Positions 25,361 through 44,223 are shown, numbered from the stretch's first letter. The stretch is DNA of 64,000 nt from an uncultured Ignavibacteria bacterium (GCA_903939735.1 CAJAIA010000023.1:62001-126000), one strand, 5' to 3'. Made by a program: numbers and translations. Notes: a model not told the origin generated them from the sequence alone.

Positions 25361-26974
25361 TTACTTGATCTTGGCAATCTTCTTTGCTTCAGGGAACAGC
25401 TCGATTGCCTTCTTCGCCTGCTTGTCGCTCGTGAGCATCACTGCTGTGTATCCATTGTTGTTGAATACGGCACGACCGATCAGTGCTTTCACAGCAAGGC
25501 GCAGATAGTCTTCGTCTTGCTTGTACTCATCGGCCTTCCATTCAACTTCCTTCGTGGCGGCGATGGTCTTCATGATCGACATGTCTTCGTCGGTTACGCG
25601 AAACTCGCGCAGGTACCTCTTCATGTCGGTACCATACATGGCGCGGATGTCTTTGCCGCGGTTCTTCATGATTTGGTCGGCAGTTTCCCAGAAGGCGTTC
25701 TTCGCACGCAGCTTGCGGGCAAGGAACCCAATGGTGTCCTGCTTAACGATGTAGTCTGGCGTGACGCCACCACCACCATACACGGTACGTCCACCGACGG
25801 TCTTGAACTTCGGACGTGTCTTCGAGCTGTCGTCGAGTGTGTGGTTGATGTTATCGACCTCATCACCTTCGTCGCGGCCATCACCAGAGTAATACTTCGC
25901 CTTGTCGTCGTACGGACGCTGAATAAGGCGACCTGATGGAGTGTAGTAGCGCGAGATTGTAAGTCGGAACGCCGAACCATCGCCAAGTGGGTATTGACGC
26001 TGTACAAGCCCCTTACCGAATGATGTTTCTCCAACAACAAGGCCACGATCAAGATCCTGCACAGCGCCCGAGACAATCTCGCTTGCCGATGCAGAACCAC
26101 CGTTAATCATGACAACAAGCGGAATGTTCTCGAGTGCACCGCCTGGTGTTGACCAGAAATCTTCGTCAAACTCTGGACGACGGCCCTTGGTATACACGAG
26201 CTTCTGTCCGGCAGGCACGATTTCATCAGCGATCCGGAATGCCTGATCCAAGAATCCACCCGGATTGTAGCGCAGATCCAACAGCAGTCGCTTCATGCCT
26301 TCGCCGCGTAGGCGCTCTGCTGCATTCATCATCTCGTCGTACGTCGTTGAGCTGAAGCGATTGATCGTGATGTAGCCGATGTCGGTGCCATCGATCATGA
26401 ATGATGCATCGACGGAGTTAATCGGAATTTTATCACGTGTTACGTCAAAGACGAGGAGTTCTTTCTCGCCTGCACGTTTGATGTGAAGCTTGACCACGGT
26501 GCCTTTCGGACCGCGGAGTTTCTTCGGAACCATTTCACGCGTGAGCTTGATGGCCGTGCTATCGTTGATGCGCACGATCTTATCGCCAGCCTGGATACCG
26601 AGCGCTTCACTTGGTCCGCCAATGATCGGCGCAACTACCGTTACGGTGTCGTTGATGATGTCGAACTCAACACCAATACCATCGAACGATCCGCGGAAGT
26701 CTTCTTCGACCTTCTGCATTTCCTTCGCCGTGATGTACACCGAATGAGGATCGAGCTCGTTGAGCATACCCTTAATTGCAGCTTCGGTGAGTTTCTGTGT
26801 GTCGACATCTTCCACGTAGTTCTTCACGGCCATTGAGAGCACGTCGGAGAACTTGCGCGTTTGATCCATCACAGAGTCGCCGGAGAATGCCGGTTGCACG
26901 ACAAGTCCGATTCCGATTCCCGCGATAGCTGCAACGGCAGCAATGAGTACGATGCGAAGTGGGCGTTTCTTCAT
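25361..26974 (-). CDS. ctpA: C-terminal processing protease (S41, Prc/CtpA family)
   Basis: A serine protease of the envelope that cleaves C-termini of periplasmic proteins and cell-wall hydrolases. 537 residues from MKKRPLRIVLIAA; an upstream ATG at 27043 would swallow the promoter. A signal/TM helix is at 8-30. The PDZ domain spans about 85-170 (FRGSFDGIGVEF, LGIQAGDKIVRINDS). The catalytic core contains GGSASASEIVSGAVQD (Ser) and GETSFGKGLVQ (Lys). The C-terminal 150 residues carry the helical extension seen in Bacteroidota homologues. A perfect TAnnTTTG box lies 23 bp upstream. Confidence 0.95.
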   Translation of the reverse strand: MKKRPLRIVLIAAVAAIAGIGIGLVVQPAFSGDSVMDQTRKFSDVLSMAVKNYVEDVDTQKLTEAAIKGMLNELDPHSVYITAKEMQKVEEDFRGSFDGIGVEFDIINDTVTVVAPIIGGPSEALGIQAGDKIVRINDSTAIKLTREMVPKKLRGPKGTVVKLHIKRAGEKELLVFDVTRDKIPINSVDASFMIDGTDIGYITINRFSSTTYDEMMNAAERLRGEGMKRLLLDLRYNPGGFLDQAFRIADEIVPAGQKLVYTKGRRPEFDEDFWSTPGGALENIPLVVMINGGSASASEIVSGAVQDLDRGLVVGETSFGKGLVQRQYPLGDGSAFRLTISRYYTPSGRLIQRPYDDKAKYYSGDGRDEGDEVDNINHTLDDSSKTRPKFKTVGGRTVYGGGGVTPDYIVKQDTIGFLARKLRAKNAFWETADQIMKNRGKDIRAMYGTDMKRYLREFRVTDEDMSIMKTIAATKEVEWKADEYKQDEDYLRLAVKALIGRAVFNNNGYTAVMLTSDKQAKKAIELFPEAKKIAKIK

Positions 26975-26997
26975 GAGATTCCAAGCCAGATTGGCGA

Positions 26998-27005
26998 CAA
27001 AAGTA
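26998..27005 (-). promoter_or_regulatory. Bacteroidota-type -7 box of ctpA (TACTTTTG)
   Basis: A perfect TAnnTTTG match on the minus strand followed by T, 23 bases before the ctpA ATG at 26974. It gives a short leader of about 16 bases. Confidence 0.6.
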
Positions 27006-27051
27006 CGAAGGAGTACGGGTACGCAGACGGTACGGGGTGCCAATGAGTGTC

Positions 27052-30000
27052 TTAGCGGACGAGGCAGACCGCCTGAGACACCCCATGTTCGGTCGTCACA
27101 ATACAGGCGTAGAGTCCGGTCGGCACCTGTTCAAGAGCCATTGAAATGGCTTGGGAGGGCGAACCTTCGGCAATGGATCGGTCCAAAACAACTCCTCCGG
27201 CGAGGTCTACCAGTTGGACGCGAATCTGCTGAGATGGCTCGGTGAGTACAATCGTCACCCACTCACCTGCTGGCTGCGGCATCACCTGCAGAGCGCCCAA
27301 CTTGCGCTGCGTACGAGCTCCGACGGGCACATCACAACGTGAAATGCCGGAATAGAGCTGACTTGTGCCGCGACCAGTGAGGACCAGCTTACGAATAAGG
27401 CATCCCTGCCAAAGTTCTACCGTATCACTGAGAACGAGCGATGTGTCTGCCGCAACAGGCGCAAAGCATACAACCAGTTTCGCAGTTCCACCGCGTGCTG
27501 CAATGTTCACCGTGAACTGCGACAGTGGAGCACTGAAGAGCACATTACCTTGCATAAACACGCGGGGTAGCGCGATGCTCCTACTGCCGGTGTTCGCGAG
27601 GTCGATGGTATCACATGCCAATTGCGACATCGGCACGATGCCGAAGTCGTGCGTTGTCACGACAGCTGTATCACCATCAACACTGAGCTCGAACCCCGGA
27701 ATTGTATCGATGCGTCGCGTGACGTTCAGCGCGGAGTCGATCGCCTCGAAGCCGACAATGGCGTCTCGATAGCTATCGAGAATCGTAACACGATAGCGGC
27801 GATCGCGAATCGTTGAGTCGGTCATTACTACCGTACAGTTCTCAAGCACGTCCGTAAGCACACGTGCCGACATCAAGCCGAGATCTGCACCAGTTTCATC
27901 CTCGACAACCACCGTACGAACTGTGGCACAGGAATCGGCCGGATCCTCGAGAATGGTCGGACCCTTTTCGTCGAGCCGTTCATCGAGAAGCATCGCGAGG
28001 ATCGGACGTGACAGACAACTGTCGCTGATGCGAAGTGTGTCCTCAATACGCTGCGTTGCAAGACCAGTATGACAGAACTGGATCCATGTTCGCTCACCCG
28101 GCGCAAGCGTAACCGGCATCGCTGTCGAGATGCGTGTTGTGCCCGTAAACGATGCCGTGAATGTCTGCGGATACAGACCATAGTTCTCAAGCTCAAGAGA
28201 ATCACAACGTTCACGTCCAACGGGTACGACGCGTTCATACAGGCGCACGGTGCGCGATGAACGCAACCCCAACTCCGAAACGGTAAACCCAGGAACAATA
28301 ATCGTATCGCGAACCTTCTGCTCCACACCATCAACAGCTTCAATCACGACCGAACCGTCTTGATACACGTCTTGCAGTCCGATACGAATCGGCACAACTG
28401 CTTGCGGCGGTGTGAACTGCGGCAAGGCAACGGTCACATTACGCTCCGTGCCGGGGATCGCTGCAACACTCACGACACGCGTGTCAGCGATCACCGAGTC
28501 GGTAACAGCACCTTCGAATGTGTGGCACTTCACATCGCCGATCACGACTGGAGGATTTACGTCAAGGGGCCGGAAGGACATCCCACCGATGTAGCCGTAC
28601 GAGTTAGCTAGACCGTATCCGTAGACGTAGATGCCAAATGTTGTATCACTCCGAATCTCGTGCACGCCATCTGTCATGCGAATGCTTGCGCGTGCGTAAC
28701 GCGATCCCGGGAAGTTCGAGAAGATGTTCGGATCCACCGGCACACCGTCAAGTGTCAGCGATGAAAGGCCAATCACTGGGTGTACGATATTAAGCCACTG
28801 CTCTGTATAGATCGAATCATCGACGATGATCGAACCATTTGGTCCATTGCGGTAGTTGTACGACTGGATGCTGATGAAGCGATACGAATCCATGAATTGC
28901 TCGGCTGGAGGCACGAGCATCATAAATGGATCCCCAATGCGCGTGAAGTCGAATTGCGATGCTGCTCCACTGCTCTTCTTGTACTGGGCAACCATCGCTG
29001 GACGTGACGTCTCAATCTCCTTCGCGCCCGTTACACCCTCTTCATAGAACTCGCCAGCATCAATGATGCGACGCAACACGCCATCAATAATCACTTCTGT
29101 CGAGTCGAATCCTGCGATCACGCGCATGATATCATTGCCGGCATCAATCTCATCAGACGCTTGTATGAACGGCACGATGAATGCGCTCTTTCCCCATGTT
29201 CGAATCGGATTCATCTGTTCGACGAGGCAATCACGCGATGCAAGCGTGCCACGCCAAGCGATCGGCAATAGTGCTCGGTGATGTCCCGCAAACACTGCTA
29301 CAGGCTTCGACGCTCGAACGAGAGAACCTGTAAGATCCGGATCGACGCCAACGCGCAGATCTGCTTGCACGAGGTACGAGTCGCCCTGATCAAGGAACAC
29401 GGTATCGATGGTGCGGCGCGGATTGCGTGGTGTTTGCGCACGTGGTGTGATGTAGATAAACGTGCTGTCCTCAGTGGCAACGACAGCAAACTGCGACGGT
29501 GTTGCGTTGTTGCTAACGGTCTGCGTCGATCCGACCTTGGTGACGTCGGAGTTGTAACTCGCAATCACATAGTCTTCAGCAAGCGCGTCGGTTGGGAGCA
29601 CAAGAAACGCATCACTGGTAAGATTCGCCTGATTCAATGCATAGACCGTGACCTCGTCGCTTGCAACGATATGCACGCTCTGTGGAGCTACGGATTCGTT
29701 GTCGGACGTGGAGTAATTAAAACCTTCGCCATTGTTGCTGATGCCGCGCAATTCCTGATTGCGATAGTACACACTCGTTGTGTAGAGTTTACTAACGTCG
29801 GCAATGGTGAAATTCTCTGTGCGCGTCTGACCACTTGCATTGCGGTAGGTTATTGTTCCTGTTGTTGGACGTTCAGCGCCGATGTAGATGTACAGCTGAT
29901 GCTCTCGCTGCCTCAACGGGTCGGTAGCGAGGGTTGTTTCACCATTGTGCCAGTTCGGCAGAAACGTAAACCAGAAATCACGTCCCTTACTATCGGGCCA

Positions 30001-30072
30001 CTTCTGTGCTGCTCCACTCACAACAACGAGCAGCATACACAAAAGGGTTGCGATGATCCGGCTGTTGTTCAC
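27052..30072 (-). CDS. IgGFc-binding-domain surface protein with T9SS sorting domain
   Basis: 1006 residues, starting at GTG that overlaps the phosphatase stop (GTGA). The signal peptide ends near residue 22. Residues 25-500 match the IgGFc-binding N-terminal domain, a beta-rich domain also known from mucin-like FCGBP: GRDFWFTFLPNW, EVTVYALNQ, TDAFLVLPTDALAEDYVIAS and VFAGHHRALLP are diagnostic. Two or three Hydin-like domains follow (about 560-900; LELENYGLYPQTFTASF, VVTTHDFGIVPMSQLACDTI), then a T9SS sorting domain (residues about 925-1006, LQVMPQPAGEWVTIVL to TGLYACIVT). A paralogous domain is present in the gene at 41093. The role is unknown; adhesion is a guess. Confidence 0.87.
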   Translation of the reverse strand: MNNSRIIATLLCMLLVVVSGAAQKWPDSKGRDFWFTFLPNWHNGETTLATDPLRQREHQLYIYIGAERPTTGTITYRNASGQTRTENFTIADVSKLYTTSVYYRNQELRGISNNGEGFNYSTSDNESVAPQSVHIVASDEVTVYALNQANLTSDAFLVLPTDALAEDYVIASYNSDVTKVGSTQTVSNNATPSQFAVVATEDSTFIYITPRAQTPRNPRRTIDTVFLDQGDSYLVQADLRVGVDPDLTGSLVRASKPVAVFAGHHRALLPIAWRGTLASRDCLVEQMNPIRTWGKSAFIVPFIQASDEIDAGNDIMRVIAGFDSTEVIIDGVLRRIIDAGEFYEEGVTGAKEIETSRPAMVAQYKKSSGAASQFDFTRIGDPFMMLVPPAEQFMDSYRFISIQSYNYRNGPNGSIIVDDSIYTEQWLNIVHPVIGLSSLTLDGVPVDPNIFSNFPGSRYARASIRMTDGVHEIRSDTTFGIYVYGYGLANSYGYIGGMSFRPLDVNPPVVIGDVKCHTFEGAVTDSVIADTRVVSVAAIPGTERNVTVALPQFTPPQAVVPIRIGLQDVYQDGSVVIEAVDGVEQKVRDTIIVPGFTVSELGLRSSRTVRLYERVVPVGRERCDSLELENYGLYPQTFTASFTGTTRISTAMPVTLAPGERTWIQFCHTGLATQRIEDTLRISDSCLSRPILAMLLDERLDEKGPTILEDPADSCATVRTVVVEDETGADLGLMSARVLTDVLENCTVVMTDSTIRDRRYRVTILDSYRDAIVGFEAIDSALNVTRRIDTIPGFELSVDGDTAVVTTHDFGIVPMSQLACDTIDLANTGSRSIALPRVFMQGNVLFSAPLSQFTVNIAARGGTAKLVVCFAPVAADTSLVLSDTVELWQGCLIRKLVLTGRGTSQLYSGISRCDVPVGARTQRKLGALQVMPQPAGEWVTIVLTEPSQQIRVQLVDLAGGVVLDRSIAEGSPSQAISMALEQVPTGLYACIVTTEHGVSQAVCLVR

Positions 30073-30950
30073 AATGTCATGCTTTCCACGGTCAACCCTG
30101 ATGCATCACACATGTCGATCTTGAGAGCACCATTTGACAGGACGTGCAGTTCAGCGAATCCACCCGCGTCGTGAAACGCCTTCGTGTGATCTCCACGACG
30201 TGACGGACGTGTTCCTCCGCCTGCACCCGAGACCAGACAGCCGAACGCATCTGATGGGTTCTTGATTCCCTGCAAATCATGGTCGTGACCAGACGTGTAG
30301 AGTCGAACCTTATGCTTATCGAGAAGTGGTTTCACATGTGTAATCAAGAACGCTGAATCTCCGTAGTGACCGTAACTCCGCAGTGGATGATGTCCGGCTA
30401 CAATGTTGACTGTGGCCTTCGACGCTGCAAGTGTCTCATCGAGCCATGCGAGCTGCTTCTTCCATCCGTCCTGCGTTTGCATGAGCGCAGTTGTGTCGAT
30501 GCCTGTAATACCAAGCGACGTCGAAGAAGTTACAGGCAACGTCGTGGACCATGTCCTGCCGGGCATATTCCATTGACGATTGTTCTTGCTGTAGGCAACC
30601 TGTGCGTCGACATTTCCCCGGTGATCATGATTACCTAGGATTGCCCACCATGGAACATCAATTCCCGCGTAGATCGATGTGTATTTCGACCCCCATTGCT
30701 GGTCGTCAGCAGAATCCACCCCGCTCGGATAAATGTTGTCGCCAGTGCTGAGGATGATGGCCGGTGGCACGCCACTCTTGGCGATGCGGTTACGCATTCC
30801 TTGCGCTACGCGCCGTTGGAGCTTCCCACCTGTACCCCAATCGCCGATCACATAGATCGACGACGCACCCATCCCAGACGATGCAAGCCCCCTGAGGGGT
30901 CCGACCGTGAGACCAAGTGCAAGCGTGGTGAGGAATTGTCGGCGAATCAT
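30069..30950 (-). CDS. Tat-exported purple-acid-phosphatase-like metallophosphoesterase
   Basis: 293 residues. The N-terminus IRRQFLTTLALGL fits a twin-arginine signal, so the folded metal enzyme is probably exported by Tat. All metal motifs of the ACP5 (tartrate-resistant acid phosphatase) type are present in order: VIGDWGTGG, LSTGDNIYPSGVD, WAILGNHDHRGN, VAGHHPLRSYG and YTSGHDHDLQG. It likely hydrolyses phosphomonoesters outside the cytoplasm. The IgGFc-domain gene overlaps its stop by four bases, so the two are co-translated. It is divergent from the SpoU methylase gene, with 27 bp between starts. Confidence 0.92.
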   Translation of the reverse strand: MIRRQFLTTLALGLTVGPLRGLASSGMGASSIYVIGDWGTGGKLQRRVAQGMRNRIAKSGVPPAIILSTGDNIYPSGVDSADDQQWGSKYTSIYAGIDVPWWAILGNHDHRGNVDAQVAYSKNNRQWNMPGRTWSTTLPVTSSTSLGITGIDTTALMQTQDGWKKQLAWLDETLAASKATVNIVAGHHPLRSYGHYGDSAFLITHVKPLLDKHKVRLYTSGHDHDLQGIKNPSDAFGCLVSGAGGGTRPSRRGDHTKAFHDAGGFAELHVLSNGALKIDMCDASGLTVESMTL

Positions 30951-30957
30951 AGGCCAG

Positions 30958-30965
30958 CAAAGTAC
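30958..30965 (-). promoter_or_regulatory. Degenerate -7 box (GTACTTTG) before the phosphatase gene
   Basis: It keeps the TTTG half of the TAnnTTTG consensus, followed by C, but lacks the TA. It lies seven bases before the ATG at 30950, the same spacing as the perfect boxes of trmB and the 44223 gene. It is a weak call. Confidence 0.3.
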
Positions 30966-30977
30966 GATATTCGCATT

Positions 30978-31520
30978 GTGAACAAGCTTACCTACGACGA
31001 ACTCGTCGCAACACGATTAACAACCGCCGAGGCGGCTTCCGTTCCTCGCCATCCGGTGGTGGTGATTCTCGACGATATCCGAAGTCTGTACAACGTTGGA
31101 TCGATCTTCCGCACGGCAGACGCATTTCATGTTGCATGTGTTGCGACGTGCGGGTTTACGCCGGCGCCCCCTCGTCCGGAGATCTCCAAGACGGCGCTTG
31201 GGGCTGATGCCGTAGTGCCGACACTGGCGTTTTCCAGCACGGTAGAGGCCATCGAGCACTACCGCTCGGCAGGGTTTACCATTATGGCAGCCGAGATCGG
31301 TCATGGTTCGCGCACCACGCAAGAACTTGCGTCAGGCGACTACCCTCTCGCTGTCGTCGTTGGCAATGAGCTTACAGGGGTTTCGCAGCAAGCGCTTTCG
31401 CTGTGTGATGGTATGATCGAGATTCCGATGTTTGGTACGAAACACTCTCTTAATGTTGCTGTAGCAACAGGCATTATTCTCGCTGGTACAGTTCAGCGCT
31501 ATCGAATGTTCTCCTCATGA
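30978..31520 (+). CDS. SpoU/TrmH-family RNA 2'-O-methyltransferase
   Basis: 180 residues from GTG at 30978 (VNKLTYDELVATR); the frame extends further upstream but that would cross the divergent gene. It contains the SPOUT knot motifs: ILDDIRSLYNVGSIFRTADA (motif 1), LAVVVGNELTGVSQQAL (motif 2) and IPMFGTKHSLNVAVATGIIL (motif 3). It has no substrate-binding L30e extension, as in TrmL-like or stand-alone SpoU enzymes of Bacteroidota. The target (tRNA or rRNA) cannot be told. Its stop overlaps the next ATG (ATGA). Confidence 0.92.
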   Translation: MNKLTYDELVATRLTTAEAASVPRHPVVVILDDIRSLYNVGSIFRTADAFHVACVATCGFTPAPPRPEISKTALGADAVVPTLAFSSTVEAIEHYRSAGFTIMAAEIGHGSRTTQELASGDYPLAVVVGNELTGVSQQALSLCDGMIEIPMFGTKHSLNVAVATGIILAGTVQRYRMFSS

Positions 31521-36903: not shown

Positions 36904-37487
36904 CGAATCACGTCGTAGCGTATCCGAAGTCCAGCACCGAGTGCAACGATTCCGCGTCCGCTCAGTACATGAAGATGAAGTTCTGGTCCGAAGCTTAGTC
37001 GATCGACCACCTCAATATCGTAGCCTATCCATGAGCTCACGCCGAGCTCGGTGGCGGTGCTATTGACGCGTTGTTCTCCGTTAACGCGCCATATCGATTC
37101 TAAGAGATAGATGCCGATTCCCGTACCAACCTCAACCCCGTATGCGCGCATTGAGAGTACAAGCTGGAGAGGTATGGCGCGGAGCGATGCATAGGCGTTC
37201 GTTTGTTGTACGGGCAGATTTTCGCCAAACTCCTCAGCACTGAATGTCGTGTATCCTGTCTGGAAGCCTATACCCAACAAGTGATTCGGACGCCAGATCG
37301 CTCGCCCCGTAAGTGACGATCCTGTAAAGCGATCCGTTGCGCTGAGCGATGTCGGTGCAACATCATACGACGTCGCTTGCACCAGCACGGAGCCAACAAG
37401 CTCTATGCGATACAAAGAGTCGCGCAGCGCAGCATGCGCAGATGCGGCACACAGGAAGAGCGTAAGGATGAGAAGACGATGCCTCAT
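36897..37487 (-). CDS. Outer-membrane beta-barrel protein (unknown)
   Basis: 196 residues. Signal peptide MRHRLLILTLFLCAASAHAA. The mature part alternates beta strands with turns (LVGSVLVQATSY, HLLGIGFQTGYTTF, VEVGTGIGIYLLES, ALGAGLRIRYDVIRY), and the terminal aromatic residue Y fits an OM barrel of about eight strands. No specific family is recognised. It is the last gene of the seven-gene unit; its ATG overlaps the GDPD stop (ATGA). Confidence 0.8.
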   Translation of the reverse strand: MRHRLLILTLFLCAASAHAALRDSLYRIELVGSVLVQATSYDVAPTSLSATDRFTGSSLTGRAIWRPNHLLGIGFQTGYTTFSAEEFGENLPVQQTNAYASLRAIPLQLVLSMRAYGVEVGTGIGIYLLESIWRVNGEQRVNSTATELGVSSWIGYDIEVVDRLSFGPELHLHVLSGRGIVALGAGLRIRYDVIRY

Positions 37488-38740
37488 GGTTCGATCTGCC
37501 GTGTATAGAATCCCCACGCCAAGAGCGTTGGGTAGTTCGTGAGAATGCCATCGAAGAGGTCGGCAGCGATATATCGTCGGATAAAGGCCGCATCATCTAA
37601 TGTCCATACATAGACATCGCAGCCATCACGTTGCAGCTCACGCACAACGGATTCCTGTGTGCCGAGCGTGAATCGAGGTGCCCATACGGCGGCTTTCAAT
37701 CGCCGCGCCGTGGTTGGATCTAACTCGCACAGCACGGGAACACTACCGACGAGCGGACTTGCCTCATAGGCCTGAAGAATATCATTCGATGGGATACCAA
37801 AGAGGATTTGCAGCTTCCGTCCTTTTCGCGTTCCGTAGTCGATCATCTCTCGCTGGATCTGAAGAATCGAATCAACAACGCTTGCGTTCTTTACGTCTAG
37901 CCAAACTAACGTAAGCTCCGTACTGTCAATCACTGCTGAGAGTGCTTCGCGCAGCGTTGGTATCTGCTCCCCATACACCAATCGCGCTGCAATGCGCATC
38001 TGCGACAAGGAGTAGTTGTTGACGTCGCCAATCATGTACGGACTCGGCACGGTGCGCGCAGTAAACGTTGGATCGTGAAACACAATCGGCACACCATCCT
38101 TCGTCGCATGTACATCGATCTCGATACCGGTAGCACCAAGCGAGGACGCAAGCAGCATCATCGGGATGCTGTTCTCTGATCGTCCCAAGCGCTCTGAGTT
38201 TCGTCCACCACCGCGATGTGCGATAATCTGGAAACCTCGCAAACGTGCCTTAATCGCTCCGAGCTTGCGCAGAACAAGACCGTCTGTTTTGGAACCTATA
38301 CGGACGGTGCCGCGCAGAATAAGCCCCCTGCCATTCCCCTTCCCTTGCACGAGGTCACGTCCGCCCTCACCCGCCGATACAACAAGATCAACCCTTCCAG
38401 CATCTTGATTCGTGATAGCGCGCCATGTGCCTATGACGATCGCTGAATCACCACGCGATGCACCGATTGCACCAACAAAGGTCACATTGCGCTCTGCGTA
38501 GATACCAAGACGACGTCCGTCAAAGCGCACGGCAACTGTATCGCCAAGACGTCCTTGTCCGGTTTCCACAACGTAGACGCCACTCAGAATGGATGGACGT
38601 GATCCCTCCGTGAGAGGGTCTGTGCCGGCGAGTTCAGCAGCATAGTCGATCACCGGCATATCAACAGGTGTGAGCTCACTCACGCATGAACTCAGCACGA
38701 CAGCAACAGTGCACCAGAGGACGAGATATCTGTACATCAT
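37484..38740 (-). CDS. Lipoprotein glycerophosphodiester phosphodiesterase
   Basis: 418 residues. The start is ATG at 38740, overlapping the upstream stop. The N-terminus ends in VAVVLSSC, a lipobox, so the protein is lipid-anchored. Residues about 25-165 form a beta-rich domain of no known family. The GDPD domain (about 175-415) has HRGGGRNSE, GIEIDVHATKDGVPIVFHDP and IPTLREALS with all usual metal and catalytic residues. It likely cleaves deacylated phospholipids into glycerol-3-phosphate and alcohol outside the cytoplasm. It sits between two outer-membrane protein genes. Confidence 0.92.
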   Translation of the reverse strand: MMYRYLVLWCTVAVVLSSCVSELTPVDMPVIDYAAELAGTDPLTEGSRPSILSGVYVVETGQGRLGDTVAVRFDGRRLGIYAERNVTFVGAIGASRGDSAIVIGTWRAITNQDAGRVDLVVSAGEGGRDLVQGKGNGRGLILRGTVRIGSKTDGLVLRKLGAIKARLRGFQIIAHRGGGRNSERLGRSENSIPMMLLASSLGATGIEIDVHATKDGVPIVFHDPTFTARTVPSPYMIGDVNNYSLSQMRIAARLVYGEQIPTLREALSAVIDSTELTLVWLDVKNASVVDSILQIQREMIDYGTRKGRKLQILFGIPSNDILQAYEASPLVGSVPVLCELDPTTARRLKAAVWAPRFTLGTQESVVRELQRDGCDVYVWTLDDAAFIRRYIAADLFDGILTNYPTLLAWGFYTRQIEP

Positions 38741-39456
38741 AGGTAGAACCCTACGATGAACTCCGTGGTGATGAGTCGATCCTGAAAGGTGTTGTAGAGA
38801 AACCATGACTGATACGGATTGGATGATCGAGCAATCGTCACGCCGAGCAACACATTTGTTGTCCCAAAGAATGGTTGTTCGAGTGTGAGTGTTGCCGATG
38901 CCCCTGTGAACAGATTCGCATTCGAGCCAACGACCTGCTCATCAATTGTTCGGTCTTGCGATGTCGTGAGCTCTGCTTCAATGCGCGCCGACAGCGTGTA
39001 CTCAGCAATGCTCCAGGATGTTGCGATCATCGGATGATTCATCCAGCGCTGTTCCAGCGAGTTGAATCCATCGATGTAGGTGAGATTGCCATAGACGAAG
39101 CTCACCGAGTACCCTACCGCTAGCGTCAATGGACCAACATCACGGGCGTAGTATCCACCAGCCTGTGCAATTGATGTTGCAACGTTCGATCCTGCGCGAC
39201 CAAACGCGTGGAGACCGAAGGGAAATGCTAGACGCCAACGCACATCAATCATGGGTGCAGGCACACTGTACTCTGTGAGTGGCTTTGGAAGCATTGTTAG
39301 TGTTCCACCAACCGATGCCGACATCGTGGTGTGTTGTACGGCGCGCGTAGACATCACATAGGCGCTATCGTTGCTCTGCGCGTAAATGCTGCAAGGAACA
39401 CACAGCATTGCGCAGAGAATACACACGTAGGATAGTATCGTCGTGATAGAACACAT
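38737..39456 (-). CDS. Outer-membrane protein of unknown family
   Basis: 239 residues with a cysteine-rich signal peptide (MCSITTILSYVCILCAMLC, then VPCSIYAQ). Mature strands such as VRWRLAFPFGLHAFGRAG, LTLAVGYSVSFVYG and NVLLGVTIARSS, and the ending ITTEFIVGFYL, indicate a beta barrel. The family was not recognised. It starts 8 bp after the phosphoesterase stop, and its stop overlaps the GDPD start. Confidence 0.75.
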   Translation of the reverse strand: MCSITTILSYVCILCAMLCVPCSIYAQSNDSAYVMSTRAVQHTTMSASVGGTLTMLPKPLTEYSVPAPMIDVRWRLAFPFGLHAFGRAGSNVATSIAQAGGYYARDVGPLTLAVGYSVSFVYGNLTYIDGFNSLEQRWMNHPMIATSWSIAEYTLSARIEAELTTSQDRTIDEQVVGSNANLFTGASATLTLEQPFFGTTNVLLGVTIARSSNPYQSWFLYNTFQDRLITTEFIVGFYL

Positions 39457-39464
39457 TCTCTAGT

Positions 39465-40418
39465 CTATGGAATAGAAGGGCCAAGCGAATCTACAACAAA
39501 GGACTCCTCGCGTGCATACAATCCATCAAGGGGCACCATCGATACACACAGGGACGCATCTCCTCGCATAAGTGTCAGATAATGGAATGGACGAATGGGT
39601 CCACCCCGATATCGATCGTGATCAGAATGCATCACAGAGTCGATTCGGAGAAACTGGCGCGGTCCGCCCCCTCCTCCAGACACAAGAAAGTGCACGTTGC
39701 CGTGCTCAAAGTGCTCGTACGCATGCGAATGTCCGCTCAACCACAACCGTGCCTTCGGTGAGCGCAGAAAGACAGGCACGAAGTATTGCTGTTGAATGTA
39801 ATCAGGGGGCACAACAGTCGAGTTCGTAAACGGCGGATGATGCCCACAGGTGACAATGCACCGCACGGAGGGATCAGCGGTGAGCTCCTCAATACGGTTG
39901 ATGTACCATCGGCGCAGACTTGCCGTTGAGTCACGATCATACTCATCAAAGTTGGTGTCAAGCATCACGAATGCTATTGAGTCGATCACCACCACGTAGT
40001 AGCGATGTGTCATTCCTGGGAAGCGCGACGCAACGTTATCGAGCATCACGCGATCCATGCCGAAGTACTCGTGGTTGCCAAGCAGCGGGAACACGGGAAT
40101 CTGCGCGCGTTGTACAGGACGCATGATGCTGTCGAAGAACATCCAGTCGTCCTGACTATCACCGCGGAACACCTGATCACCAAGCAGTAACAATGCCGAC
40201 GGATTCGACTTCACCATCTGTCGAACTAACTGTCCGTGCATGGTGTTGCGCTCGCGCCACACTTCAAATGGACTTGTTCGCTGCTGATCTCCGATCACAG
40301 CTATAGACGCCACGCCTGTGGGAACGCGATGTAGAAATGGCGAGGGGGCTCGCATGGGCGAACTACATGCGATGAAGCCGAGGAGGCAGGCGAAGGCGAT
40401 GAGCCATCCAAGCCGCAT
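39465..40418 (-). CDS. Lipoprotein metallophosphoesterase
   Basis: 317 residues. The signal ends in LLGFIAC, a lipobox (Cys18), so it is a lipid-anchored calcineurin-like phosphatase. Metal motifs appear in order: VIGDQQRTS (variant of the first GD motif), LLLLGDQVFRGD, LLGNHEYFG, VTCGHHPPF and LSGHSHAYEHF. The overall type matches the purple-acid-phosphatase-like group. The start shares one base with the ccmB stop (TAATG). Together with the downstream GDPD lipoprotein, it makes a pair of exported phosphoesterases in one unit. Confidence 0.9.
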   Translation of the reverse strand: MRLGWLIAFACLLGFIACSSPMRAPSPFLHRVPTGVASIAVIGDQQRTSPFEVWRERNTMHGQLVRQMVKSNPSALLLLGDQVFRGDSQDDWMFFDSIMRPVQRAQIPVFPLLGNHEYFGMDRVMLDNVASRFPGMTHRYYVVVIDSIAFVMLDTNFDEYDRDSTASLRRWYINRIEELTADPSVRCIVTCGHHPPFTNSTVVPPDYIQQQYFVPVFLRSPKARLWLSGHSHAYEHFEHGNVHFLVSGGGGGPRQFLRIDSVMHSDHDRYRGGPIRPFHYLTLMRGDASLCVSMVPLDGLYAREESFVVDSLGPSIP

Positions 40419-41089
40419 TATTCAGTCCACACGACGTCGAATACGAGATACGATACCGTTGCGACGATACCGGTATGACTCAGCATCAGAGCGAGATCTG
40501 ACCATACGTCGCTGATCGCTACGTCGGCCATGGCAAGAAGCGTTGCATTCATGCCAGGCATAATGAGCGGAAGCAACACGGGGAAGGACAACACAGGAAG
40601 CAGCGGACTCCGCGTGCCGGCCGTGGCAACGATTGCCGATGTAATCGTGATCACCGTAGCAAGACCAACACTTCCGACAAGCAAGACAAGGAGCAGAAGC
40701 CATGGTGATCCAATCGGAATAGTACCGATCAACATCACGAACAGGAGTAGGACTGTTAGGTTCGACAGTGACGACACGAGCACATTGCTGATGAGCTTGC
40801 CAAGGATCACTGCATGCGATGGAGCGCTTAGCTGCAAGTAGAGTGTTGTGCCACGTTCTTCTTCGCTGATGAAGCCGCGACCCAGACCCGTCATGGCTGT
40901 GAAGAACATCACCACCCACAACACACCAGCAGCTATCGGTCGATGCAGTTGTTCATCAGCGGTTGCAAACGCAACAAGTGCGACAGCTGTAACGACGAAC
41001 AACGCAATTGCTGTCAGTCCGTACCGTGTGCGAATCTCACTGCGGAGATCCTTCATAACAACGGCCGTGAGCGACTGCATGCGTGTCAT
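40418..41089 (-). CDS. ccmB: CcmB-like heme exporter permease
   Basis: 223 residues, six TM helices. The N-terminal VMKDLRSEIRTRYGL, GRGFISEEERGTTLYLQLSAP and HAVILGKLISN match CcmB, the membrane subunit of the CcmAB transporter in cytochrome c maturation. Neither ccmA nor ccmC is next to it. It sits in a unit of surface-protein and phosphoesterase genes. It may be an ordinary ccmB in an unusual place, or a CcmB-type permease with another job. The start is ATG at 41089; a GTG codon lies just upstream. Confidence 0.82.
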   Translation of the reverse strand: MTRMQSLTAVVMKDLRSEIRTRYGLTAIALFVVTAVALVAFATADEQLHRPIAAGVLWVVMFFTAMTGLGRGFISEEERGTTLYLQLSAPSHAVILGKLISNVLVSSLSNLTVLLLFVMLIGTIPIGSPWLLLLVLLVGSVGLATVITITSAIVATAGTRSPLLPVLSFPVLLPLIMPGMNATLLAMADVAISDVWSDLALMLSHTGIVATVSYLVFDVVWTE

Positions 41090-41092
41090 CAC

Positions 41093-43450
41093 TTAAAAGC
41101 GGAATCGCAGGCCAACATTCAACCCAAATCGTTGCGCCGTCCAGTCGCCGTCGCTCGTCATTGACGACATCCACCTCGTGTACATCGCTTCTGCGAAGAG
41201 TGATGCGCGGAAGGTTATAGGATACGAAAAGCCAAGTCCGCCGTACACGCCAACATTAAACGTCGTGAGTGAGCTCAGGCCATCGTTCTGTACGTCTTGC
41301 GTGCGCTCACCACCCGGATATGTCCAGTTCGACGGACGTAGGATAGTGCGCTGGATATCTGTACTTGTGCCAAGCAGCATTGTTGCCTGCACACCCGTTG
41401 ACAGGTAGAAGTAGCGATGTGGGAACCACTCGATTCCAGCACCAATCTGGACGAGCGGCGATGTAACACGTAGCGTTGTCGCCTCTTGATAGGAAACCAC
41501 ACGGCGTGCGATCGAATCATAGATCGGCGTAACAGTGCTATCTGGCGCAAGGAGTGTTCCTCCCACGGATGTTACTCCGAGTCGTGCGTTGAGCACCAGG
41601 TCCTGCGTAACACGACGTCCTACAAGTGCACCACCACCGACGAAGGAACCAACCGAAGCCTGATTGAATGATGTCTGCGCGACATTTACCGATGGCATGC
41701 GCACATCGACATCATGGAACATTGTGCCAGTTGAGAAGAATGCTCCGACCATCCATGCCCCTTCCGAAGCACACATGACGTCGGACCCCTCATTGAGCAT
41801 GTATGTGTAGCGCTCGCTGCGACTATCGAACACGTAGCAGATCGTTACATCACTTGTGTTACCGGCAACATCTTCAGAGCGCAAGACAACCCGTCCTGAC
41901 TGTCCACCAACGGACTGTCGAATCCGGACACCGACTTGCGGAGCTCCTTCGTCGACCTTTGGGATCTGTGCTGTTAGTCCATCAGATGCCAGAACTGAAA
42001 TCTTGCGAAGCCCCTTATCCGTTGGTCGATCGTCGCGAATCGTCACCATGTAATCATCGCGCATACGTTTACCATCGGCTACCGGAGGCAACGTATCGAC
42101 GAGCGCTTTCAGTTCGAGGAATGACTGTCCGGCCATATTCCCATACGCATCATAAGCGTCCGCCTTAAATCCGAAGCCGTAGGAGTACAATCCGAACGGC
42201 GTTTCACTACGGATCACATGCGAGCCGAACGGAATCGGGACTTGGGCGATCGAGTAACGACTTTCGCCGAGCACGCTAAACGTAGCCGAATCAATCTTCC
42301 GTCCGTTCAGCTTGATCTGTGTGATCGAGCTCGTCGGTGCTACAAGATTGATGTAGTGATGCCAATCACCACTAATCGGTGTAGCGATGCGATACTCATT
42401 GAGGAACTGCTGCGTTGGACTCACCAGGATCATCATCGGATCGCCTACGCTATCGCCATTCTTAAAGCCCTGAGCAAACTGTGCGACCAGCACTGGCTTG
42501 TCGGCAGTGATCTGCACGTGGCGCGACACGTTGAGGTTCTCGTAGAATTCGCCAGCGCGCATCACTGCAACAAGACGTGAGTCTTCGAACACCTTTGTCT
42601 GGTCTTGCGATGCAATCACACGGAAGGTGTACTTGGACCGTTCCTTGAGCATGCCCAAGTAGTAGTGCTTTCCCCATGCACTCACAGGTGGCAGTTGCTC
42701 GACGAGGTGGTTACATGCATCAATCTTCGGTGGCACGTAGGCGCAGTTATGTCCGCTGAAGACAGCGATGTTCTTGTTCGACGTGATCAATGTTCCGGTC
42801 AAATCGCACTGTCCGATTGACTCCCATCGCGCCCCTACACTGTAGACATCGCCCTTGCGAAGGCGCACGGAAAACGGCACGCCCGCTGGACGTCCCGTTG
42901 ATGTCGTAACTGAGGGCGTAATGGTAACGTCGGTTTCATCTTCTGTTGCAATCACCGAAAGTGCCGACAGCAGATCTGACGAAAGCTTCGTGTAACCCAC
43001 AGCGCGGTACTCTTTGCCTAACACTTGAATCGGCAGACCCAAGAACGTGTCTGTCGTTTGATAGCGGCTGTTCAAGCCATACACACTCACCGTGGTATCG
43101 GCAGTAACGTGTACGGCAAGACGCTCCGGTTGTTCAGACAGGCGCAGCTGTGCTCGTGCAGGAATCTGCACTGGCACCACTGCATTTGCGCGAATGGTAA
43201 TCGTATTGTCGTAGTTCAGCTCTTCGATCTGAATACGCACGGTAGCATCATAGCTACTCGTAATGAAAAGCTGAAGTCGAAGATTCTCCTGATTGCGGCC
43301 ATCACGTTGCGCAGCTTCACGAAAATTCTTCATGAAGACCAACCAGAACTCACGTCCTTCAGAGTTCTTCGTTATCACTTCAGGATCACCGCACAGGGCA
43401 GTCGTTGCGACTGATGCAAGCAGCATGAGAACCAGGAGGGCGCGCATCAT
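41093..43450 (-). CDS. IgGFc-binding domain fused to a C-terminal outer-membrane beta barrel
   Basis: 785 residues. Signal peptide about 1-20. Residues 25-450 form the IgGFc-binding N-terminal domain: EGREFWLVFMKNF, TVSVYGLNSRYQTTDTFLGL, AVFSGHNCAYVPP and GSHVIRSETPFGLYSYGFGF. A short Ig-like part follows (to about 560). From about residue 575 there is a new beta-barrel region (FVGGGALVGRRVTQDLVLNA, FPHRYFYLSTGVQA, NVGVYGGLGFSYPITF), ending in GLNVGLRFRF, a classic outer-membrane end. There is no T9SS domain here. The paralogue at 27052 has one instead. The start overlaps the stop of the T9SS cargo gene (ATGA). Confidence 0.85.
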   Translation of the reverse strand: MMRALLVLMLLASVATTALCGDPEVITKNSEGREFWLVFMKNFREAAQRDGRNQENLRLQLFITSSYDATVRIQIEELNYDNTITIRANAVVPVQIPARAQLRLSEQPERLAVHVTADTTVSVYGLNSRYQTTDTFLGLPIQVLGKEYRAVGYTKLSSDLLSALSVIATEDETDVTITPSVTTSTGRPAGVPFSVRLRKGDVYSVGARWESIGQCDLTGTLITSNKNIAVFSGHNCAYVPPKIDACNHLVEQLPPVSAWGKHYYLGMLKERSKYTFRVIASQDQTKVFEDSRLVAVMRAGEFYENLNVSRHVQITADKPVLVAQFAQGFKNGDSVGDPMMILVSPTQQFLNEYRIATPISGDWHHYINLVAPTSSITQIKLNGRKIDSATFSVLGESRYSIAQVPIPFGSHVIRSETPFGLYSYGFGFKADAYDAYGNMAGQSFLELKALVDTLPPVADGKRMRDDYMVTIRDDRPTDKGLRKISVLASDGLTAQIPKVDEGAPQVGVRIRQSVGGQSGRVVLRSEDVAGNTSDVTICYVFDSRSERYTYMLNEGSDVMCASEGAWMVGAFFSTGTMFHDVDVRMPSVNVAQTSFNQASVGSFVGGGALVGRRVTQDLVLNARLGVTSVGGTLLAPDSTVTPIYDSIARRVVSYQEATTLRVTSPLVQIGAGIEWFPHRYFYLSTGVQATMLLGTSTDIQRTILRPSNWTYPGGERTQDVQNDGLSSLTTFNVGVYGGLGFSYPITFRASLFAEAMYTRWMSSMTSDGDWTAQRFGLNVGLRFRF

Positions 43451-44223
43451 TTCATCACCGTCACAGGGTGATAGTACGTTCCCTCATCGGTCGTGATTGT
43501 TACCACGTACGCACCAGCTGCAATCTCCCATGCAATCACGTTGAGGTCGATCGCATTCTCTCCAGCCGTTGCCTCCATTGGAGCAACACTCGTAACGATA
43601 CGACCTTGATATGTGCGAAGAGCGCAGCTTACCGTTCCGGGGGCACGCATTACGAACACCACGCGAGTGCGATCACGAAACGGATTGGGATACGTGCCGG
43701 TAATACCCTGCGTAATGGTATACCCACCACGTGAGCCACCACCACGACGCACTTCGCATTCGTTTGCGGCGAGATCGAGGACGGGTACATCGTTGATCGC
43801 GATAGAGTCTACACCAAGCGCACCAATAGAGTCGGTTCCCAGCACACCCTGCACATCCAAGGCCACGAGTGTATCGTTGGTGACTCCGACGCTGAATGCA
43901 CATCGAATCGTGACATACGCGCGCGTTGAGGATTCAATCACTGGCTCGGAACGTTGTGGCTCCGCGCATCGAATGGCGTACGTTTCAGATCCTCGTGCAC
44001 CGATGATTTGCATAACGCTTGGGTTGTAGCGTATCGTAATTGCAATATCACCACCTTGTGGAAGACTGCCAGTAATAGCGATACGTGCTACCGAACCTGG
44101 CTCAAGGAGAAGTTGCGTAGGCACATTCGCTTCTGCACCTATCGTATACTGGAAGGTACCAGCAAGTACGACGAGTACAATGATGAGGCGGTGCAAGAGG
44201 TGATACGACAGCGGTGTTTGCAT
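43447..44223 (-). CDS. Small T9SS cargo protein
   Basis: 258 residues. Signal peptide with HRLIIVLVVLAGTFQYTIGA. Residues 35-150 look like a cohesin-type beta domain (GGDIAITIRYNPSVMQIIGA). A Gly/Arg linker (RRGGGSRGG) leads to the C-terminal sorting domain (TYPNPFRDRTRVVFVM, then AAGAYVVTITTDEG). It is first in the seven-gene unit. The promoter box is seven bases upstream of the ATG, which suggests a leaderless transcript. The function is unknown. Confidence 0.83.
   Translation of the reverse strand: MQTPLSYHLLHRLIIVLVVLAGTFQYTIGAEANVPTQLLLEPGSVARIAITGSLPQGGDIAITIRYNPSVMQIIGARGSETYAIRCAEPQRSEPVIESSTRAYVTIRCAFSVGVTNDTLVALDVQGVLGTDSIGALGVDSIAINDVPVLDLAANECEVRRGGGSRGGYTITQGITGTYPNPFRDRTRVVFVMRAPGTVSCALRTYQGRIVTSVAPMEATAGENAIDLNVIAWEIAAGAYVVTITTDEGTYYHPVTVMK

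Follow-up and report, generated by a model that had tools for sequence, protein, structure and literature searches.

Purple acid phosphatases, to which the animal TRAP/ACP5 enzymes belong, are defined by seven metal ligands (D, D, Y, N, H, H, H) in five motifs (PMC2553084). In the type IX secretion system (T9SS) of Bacteroidota, PorQ belongs to the attachment module PorU-PorV-PorQ-PorZ. In Porphyromonas gingivalis, PorU together with PorQ and PorZ attaches cargo to anionic lipopolysaccharide (A-LPS), and the phosphorylation of cargo affects secretion; the available part of that source names no phosphatase as a component of the module (PMC10202324). Phosphate-acquisition loci combine an exported phosphatase with a TonB receptor. 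The domain IgGFc_binding (PF17517) is named after FCGBP. Here we compare with these systems a window, that is, the whole stretch of 64,000 nucleotides analysed (GCA_903939735.1 CAJAIA010000023.1:62001-126000, uncultured Ignavibacteria bacterium), in which two genes for IgGFc-domain proteins (IgGFc1 and IgGFc2) lie close to two genes for calcineurin-like phosphatases (MPE1 and MPE2). The relatives of the window are named Candidatus Kapaibacterium or Kapabacteriales in the genome collection. Its source is a bacterium of the order Kapabacteriales, which is known chiefly through metagenome-assembled genomes. The families of the order are designated f1, f2 and so on, f1 being that of the window. 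MPE1 and IgGFc1 (pair 1) are an old, real gene pair of Kapabacteriales.

MPE1 matches Metallophos PF00149 (Pfam, E 1e-15) and, over residues 32-252, the solved TRAP/uteroferrin structures (phmmer, E 9e-37 to 7ov8). All seven metal ligands are present (D37, D71, Y74, N107, H187, H222 and H224), and they are invariant in an alignment of 16 sequences. As judged from its sequence, MPE1 is a TRAP/ACP5-type purple acid phosphatase. It resembles the animal enzymes in sequence, size and all seven ligands, including the tyrosine of the purple center. In contrast to them, it is bacterial, is exported by the twin-arginine translocation (Tat) pathway or apparently anchored to lipid or membrane depending on the family, and sits in an operon with a T9SS-type surface protein. 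The N-terminus MIRRQFL of the window copy is a Tat motif; the N-termini read from other families are lipoprotein-like in f7 and f3 and uncleaved-anchor-like in f5. MPE1 is single-copy in nearly all genomes of the order that carry it. In the phylogenetic tree, whose root was not inferred, the kapabacterial MPE1 sequences form one clade, to which the TRAPs of other phyla do not belong, and the scatter of IgGFc pairing on this tree suits an old adjacency with losses.

IgGFc1 matches PF17517 over the full length of the profile (1-297; Pfam, E 2e-56, 191.7 bits, cut-off 25.6). The IgGFc domain (residues 154-485) is followed by an Ig/ASH-like region (~500-905) and a probable T9SS tail (927-1006). 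The tail scores 21.1 bits in Pfam, under the cut-off of 27, and the window copy shows no T9SS-tail match in NCBIfam. The IgGFc1 family profile matches solved T9SS tails at E 4e-4. In the AlphaFold model (predicted local distance difference test, pLDDT, 83), the fold predicted for residues 927-1006 is similar to the PorU tail (Z 9.2, root-mean-square deviation (rmsd) 2.7, 79 residues aligned), which is one likeness to the attachment module. The C-terminus is, on this model, a probable T9SS type A sorting domain. The fold search with IgGFc1 yielded nothing beyond Ig arrays of a generic kind and the T9SS tail, and the viral library only generic Ig-array matches. The IgGFc1 clade consists of IgGFc proteins of ~1000 aa (SH-like support 99), includes all paired IgGFc proteins, and is separate from the IgGFc2 clade and the other IgGFc paralogues. 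IgGFc1 genes often form tandem pairs in f2, f8, f9, f10 and one genome of another order of the same class (loci L215, L216, L090, L094, L182, L228 and L229).

The reading frames of MPE1 and IgGFc1 overlap by 4 bp (GTGA, 30072-30069), as read directly in the window. The sequence-only reading had described a Tat-exported acid phosphatase overlapping an IgGFc/T9SS gene here; the open reading frames, their domains and the GTGA agree with it. A family-specific profile of MPE1, run on 60 genomes of the order, matched 50 of them. The gene is absent in all genomes of f2 (6) and f4 (3), and the weaker match in the f8 genome G044 may be another subtype. Reading of the DNA around MPE1 placed IgGFc1 directly downstream in 32 of these 50 genomes, in five families (f1, 23/23; f5, 6/6; f6, 1/1; f10, 1/1; f8, one). 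The adjacency was not observed in f3, f7 and f9. The 4-bp overlap, ATGA or GTGA, is present in most f1 and several f5 genomes. In the 21 genomes with complete tables, which include the window's own, a phosphatase lies at most 1 kb away from 12 of 151 IgGFc genes, where 1.3 would be expected. The 12 cases share one configuration, with 645-715 bp between the domains, and represent one orthologous locus.

The ancestral order was likely a divergent TrmH, MPE1, IgGFc1 and the S41 peptidase. TrmH lies beside MPE1 or IgGFc1 in f1, f2, f8, f9 and f10, and the S41 peptidase is kept next to IgGFc1 in f1 and f2. TrmH-MPE1 is kept in f9 without an adjoining IgGFc1. In the f2 genome G039 (locus L226), TrmH, IgGFc1 and S41 are observed without MPE1. 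A metagenome-assembled genome titled Bradyrhizobiaceae (JAGFIZ010000025.1, locus L083) carries a typical Kapabacteriales block, and its title looks wrong.

Table 1. Genes of the two pairs and their neighbors in the window.
Feature	Coordinates	Strand	Description	Evidence
MPE1	30069-30950	-	Tat-exported TRAP/ACP5-type purple acid phosphatase (from sequence), 293 aa	Pfam PF00149, phmmer
IgGFc1	27052-30072	-	1006 aa, signal peptide, IgGFc and Ig-like domains	Pfam PF17517
TrmH/RlmB-type RNA methyltransferase	30696-31520	+	divergent, likely ancestral upstream neighbor of MPE1	NCBIfam
S41 C-terminal processing peptidase	25361-27043	-	downstream of IgGFc1	TIGR00225, E 4e-85
IgGFc2	41093-43450	-	785 aa, IgGFc domain and OmpA-type barrel	PF17517, E 4e-76
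Exported protein	43447-44223	-	258 aa, T9SS type A tail	TIGR04183, 29.4 bits, cut-off 23
CcmB-like permease	40418-41092	-	between IgGFc2 and MPE2	PF03379, E 1e-18
MPE2	39465-40418	-	lipoprotein calcineurin-like phosphatase	PF00149, E 5e-12
GDPD-family lipoprotein	37484-38806	-	travels with MPE2	PF03009, E 9e-23

In the second pair, IgGFc2 and MPE2, the phosphatase is of another type and belongs to a family-level neighborhood with CcmB and GDPD, to which the pairing with IgGFc2 is incidental. IgGFc2 also matches PF17517 over the full profile (1-297; 256.5 bits, cut-off 25.6). Its C-terminus (~560-785) is an OmpA-type 8-stranded barrel (Z 17.3, rmsd 2.5, 162 residues aligned; model pLDDT 85). 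The fold search found the barrel only, and the sequence search against solved structures gave no match. Both ends of 8-stranded OmpA-type barrels face the periplasm, and thus the IgGFc domain of IgGFc2 may not be on the surface. One orthologue of IgGFc2 is present in nearly every genome of the order examined (clade support 100). The protein of 258 aa with a T9SS tail is its constant partner, found in 17 of 21 IgGFc2 loci across the order. This gene directly precedes IgGFc2 with a 4-bp overlap, and it is the most constant IgGFc pairing seen.

In the window, IgGFc2 is followed by CcmB, MPE2, one further gene and the GDPD lipoprotein, consistent with the earlier placement of an IgGFc-barrel gene two genes upstream of a lipoprotein phosphatase. 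CcmB, which has no obvious ATPase gene adjacent to it, is present in 11 of the 21 IgGFc2 loci; it adjoins IgGFc2 in ten, and in the eleventh it has moved off with MPE2. MPE2 is found only in f1 among these loci. Its distance from IgGFc2 is at most ~2 kb in seven genomes of f1 (G000, G004, G005, G010, G011, G018 and G021) and 8-9 kb in three (G012, G013 and G017), and in four it lies away from IgGFc2 (G001, G006, G008 and G009). No MPE2 match was obtained in four other f1 genomes, and contig breaks leave the placement undecided in the rest. In G012, CcmB, MPE2 and GDPD form a group separated from IgGFc2 by ~7 kb; in G014, CcmB is retained and MPE2 is absent. Clear relatives of MPE2 outside f1 are present in G031, G033 and G052, none of them listed near IgGFc2. 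Because CcmB lies between the two genes, MPE2 is linked to CcmB and GDPD, and the arrangement breaks within f1, pair 2 is not an independent case, as the sequence-only reading had taken it to be. That reading had also assigned metal motifs to both phosphatases. They are kept in both, with the difference that MPE2 has Phe (GDQVF; window sequence and alignment) at the position of the tyrosine ligand and so lacks the GDxxY motif of purple acid phosphatases. MPE2 is weakly TRAP-like (E 3e-5) and 24% identical to MPE1.

Segmental duplication was considered as the source of both pairs and rejected, as IgGFc1 and IgGFc2 are separate order-wide clades, MPE1 and MPE2 share only this 24% identity, and the gene order of the two pairs is opposite. 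No fusion of IgGFc and phosphatase domains was noticed in the match tables, in which no dedicated search for one was made. IgGFc1 and IgGFc2 share the full-length domain with PF17517 proteins. Unlike the FCGBP-type context, they belong to free-living bacteria, and the domain is carried on a T9SS stalk or an OmpA-type barrel; the name IgGFc_binding implies no IgG binding for either. The fold searches of both models indicated no class of ligand, and they barely covered the IgGFc domain itself.

In f7, where MPE1 is not adjacent to IgGFc1, porQ is immediately downstream of MPE1 in 6/6 genomes. This is a second likeness to the attachment module. The PorQ profile NF033711 (cut-off 220) gives 224 bits beside MPE1 in G049 and G059, and it stays below the cut-off in G054 (187 bits) and G028 (184 bits). 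A C25 peptidase with a T9SS tail is close upstream of MPE1 in the f7 loci L091, L092 and L100. The MPE1-porQ arrangement is observed at L100:7797-10038 and at L091, L221, L250, L252, L255, L259 and L262. The position of MPE1 beside porQ after leaving IgGFc1 suggests that a link between this phosphatase and the T9SS surface is a better lead than one between IgGFc domains and phosphoesters, and that the link is a feature of this IgGFc lineage and of the T9SS surface rather than of IgGFc domains in general. These two settings of MPE1 suggest T9SS surface biology as their common denominator.

We give about an even chance to the reading that pair 1 is an ancient two-gene operon for one cell-envelope task, tied to the IgGFc1 lineage and the T9SS surface. 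As the reading frames overlap, MPE1 and IgGFc1 are probably co-transcribed and translationally coupled. From its signals, MPE1 would fold with its metals in the cytoplasm and exit by Tat, and IgGFc1 would exit by Sec and then be carried by T9SS to the cell surface. There, MPE1 may strip phosphate from exported molecules or surface glycolipids, and IgGFc1, with an IgGFc head, an Ig-like stalk and a T9SS tail, may be a co-made surface protein for binding or scaffolding.

Several observations weigh against this reading. The entire block from TrmH to LdcA is kept in f1, and thus the conservation of the pair there is not specific. TrmH-MPE1, whose functions are unrelated, has a similarly wide distribution (f1, f8, f9 and f10). 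Five of ten testable neighbor pairs of the window are also adjacent in an f5 genome, a background rate resting on 0.8 Mb of that one genome, so that the retention of an overlapping pair is ordinary. IgGFc1 occurs without MPE1 in f2 and is unlinked from it in f3, f7 and f9, indicating that neither gene needs the other as a neighbor. The porQ case of f7 is limited to one genus and is probably a single event. Although MPE1-IgGFc1 has the behavior of an operon, a joint function is not strongly proven by retention of the pair alone. It is therefore quite possible, at somewhat less than an even chance, that only a neighborhood was inherited: MPE1 would be an ordinary acid phosphatase for phosphate scavenging and IgGFc1 a surface protein unrelated to it, their single ancestral adjacency decaying normally and the overlap saving space. 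Consistent with this, half of the testable neighbor pairs persist even to f5, and the families that retain the divergent TrmH-MPE1 overlap with those that retain IgGFc1-S41. Only MPE1 was lost in f2, and only the adjacency in f9. A nutrient-uptake setting is also observed for related TRAP-type phosphatases outside the order, in which a TonB-receptor-like gene, as read from sequence, is a neighbor in 8 of 22 loci. Large TonB-receptor-like neighbors are found in other Bacteroidota and in gammaproteobacteria (L115, L117, L118, L122, L123, L141, L150 and L151). These loci resemble phosphate-acquisition loci, unlike the window, where no TonB receptor lies beside MPE1. An inherited neighborhood is harder to reconcile with the overlapping frames conserved through f1 and f5, with f6, which keeps the pair and no other listed neighbor, and with the T9SS setting that recurs after the relocation of MPE1 in f7.

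The sequence-only reading had suggested a functional link between the IgGFc-like domain and phosphoester substrates. As a general rule, with IgGFc-like domains binding molecules that bear phosphoesters and having phosphatases as their usual companions, this is very improbable. The suggestion was prompted by two pairs within 17 kb. The window's genome has seven IgGFc and seven metallophosphatase genes; when these are placed at random, ~0.7% of placements bring at least two IgGFc genes to 2.5 kb or less from a phosphatase, and 7% bring at least one to 1 kb or less. The enrichment below 1 kb also holds within the order, although it comes from one orthologous locus, whose IgGFc gene persists without MPE1 or unlinked from it elsewhere. 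The two pairs in the window are the only ones in that genome, leaving five other IgGFc genes with no phosphatase nearby, and MPE2 is linked to CcmB rather than to IgGFc2. Across the phylum, with the window's order counted in, 34 of the 148 genomes sampled carry PF17517. Outside the order, no metallophosphatase was found in 34 regions of 8.5-20 kb examined around IgGFc genes; the profile used detected 33/33 left-out phosphatases. The enrichment thus does not extend there, an outcome that the sequence-only reading had itself named as counting against it. Of the several IgGFc lineages, a single one is paired, and the TRAP relatives in other phyla lack an IgGFc neighbor. A further reading, also unlikely, is that MPE1 is an accessory of T9SS attachment, trimming phosphate from the lipopolysaccharide-type glycolipid or from cargo before or after attachment of the PorU/PorQ/PorZ type. 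The adjacent porQ in all six f7 genomes, the C25 peptidase upstream in several, the probable T9SS tail of IgGFc1, the divergent Laminin_G/ASH protein that adjoins MPE1 in loci of f3, and both the A-LPS attachment and the cargo phosphorylation described for P. gingivalis point in this direction. Against it, MPE1 and porQ are not linked in the other families or in the genome of the window, f2 genomes keep porQ without MPE1, and T9SS cargo genes are so numerous that some adjacency is expected. A stronger form, in which MPE1 is an unrecognized T9SS-attachment phosphatase editing phosphate of the glycolipid anchor or cargo, and IgGFc1 is a surface client dedicated to it, is a long shot.

A search of the open-access literature gave no article that treats IgGFc genes of bacteria together with phosphatases, and none on the T9SS of Kapabacteriales. 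The operon, in which a purple acid phosphatase of animal type is joined to a surface protein predicted to use T9SS, is conserved and apparently undescribed. Two nearby co-occurrences can represent one real ancestral operon and one family-level neighborhood. Bacterial IgGFc proteins are split into lineages with different partners, and the question moves from phosphoester binding by IgGFc domains to a phosphatase that may serve the T9SS surface.

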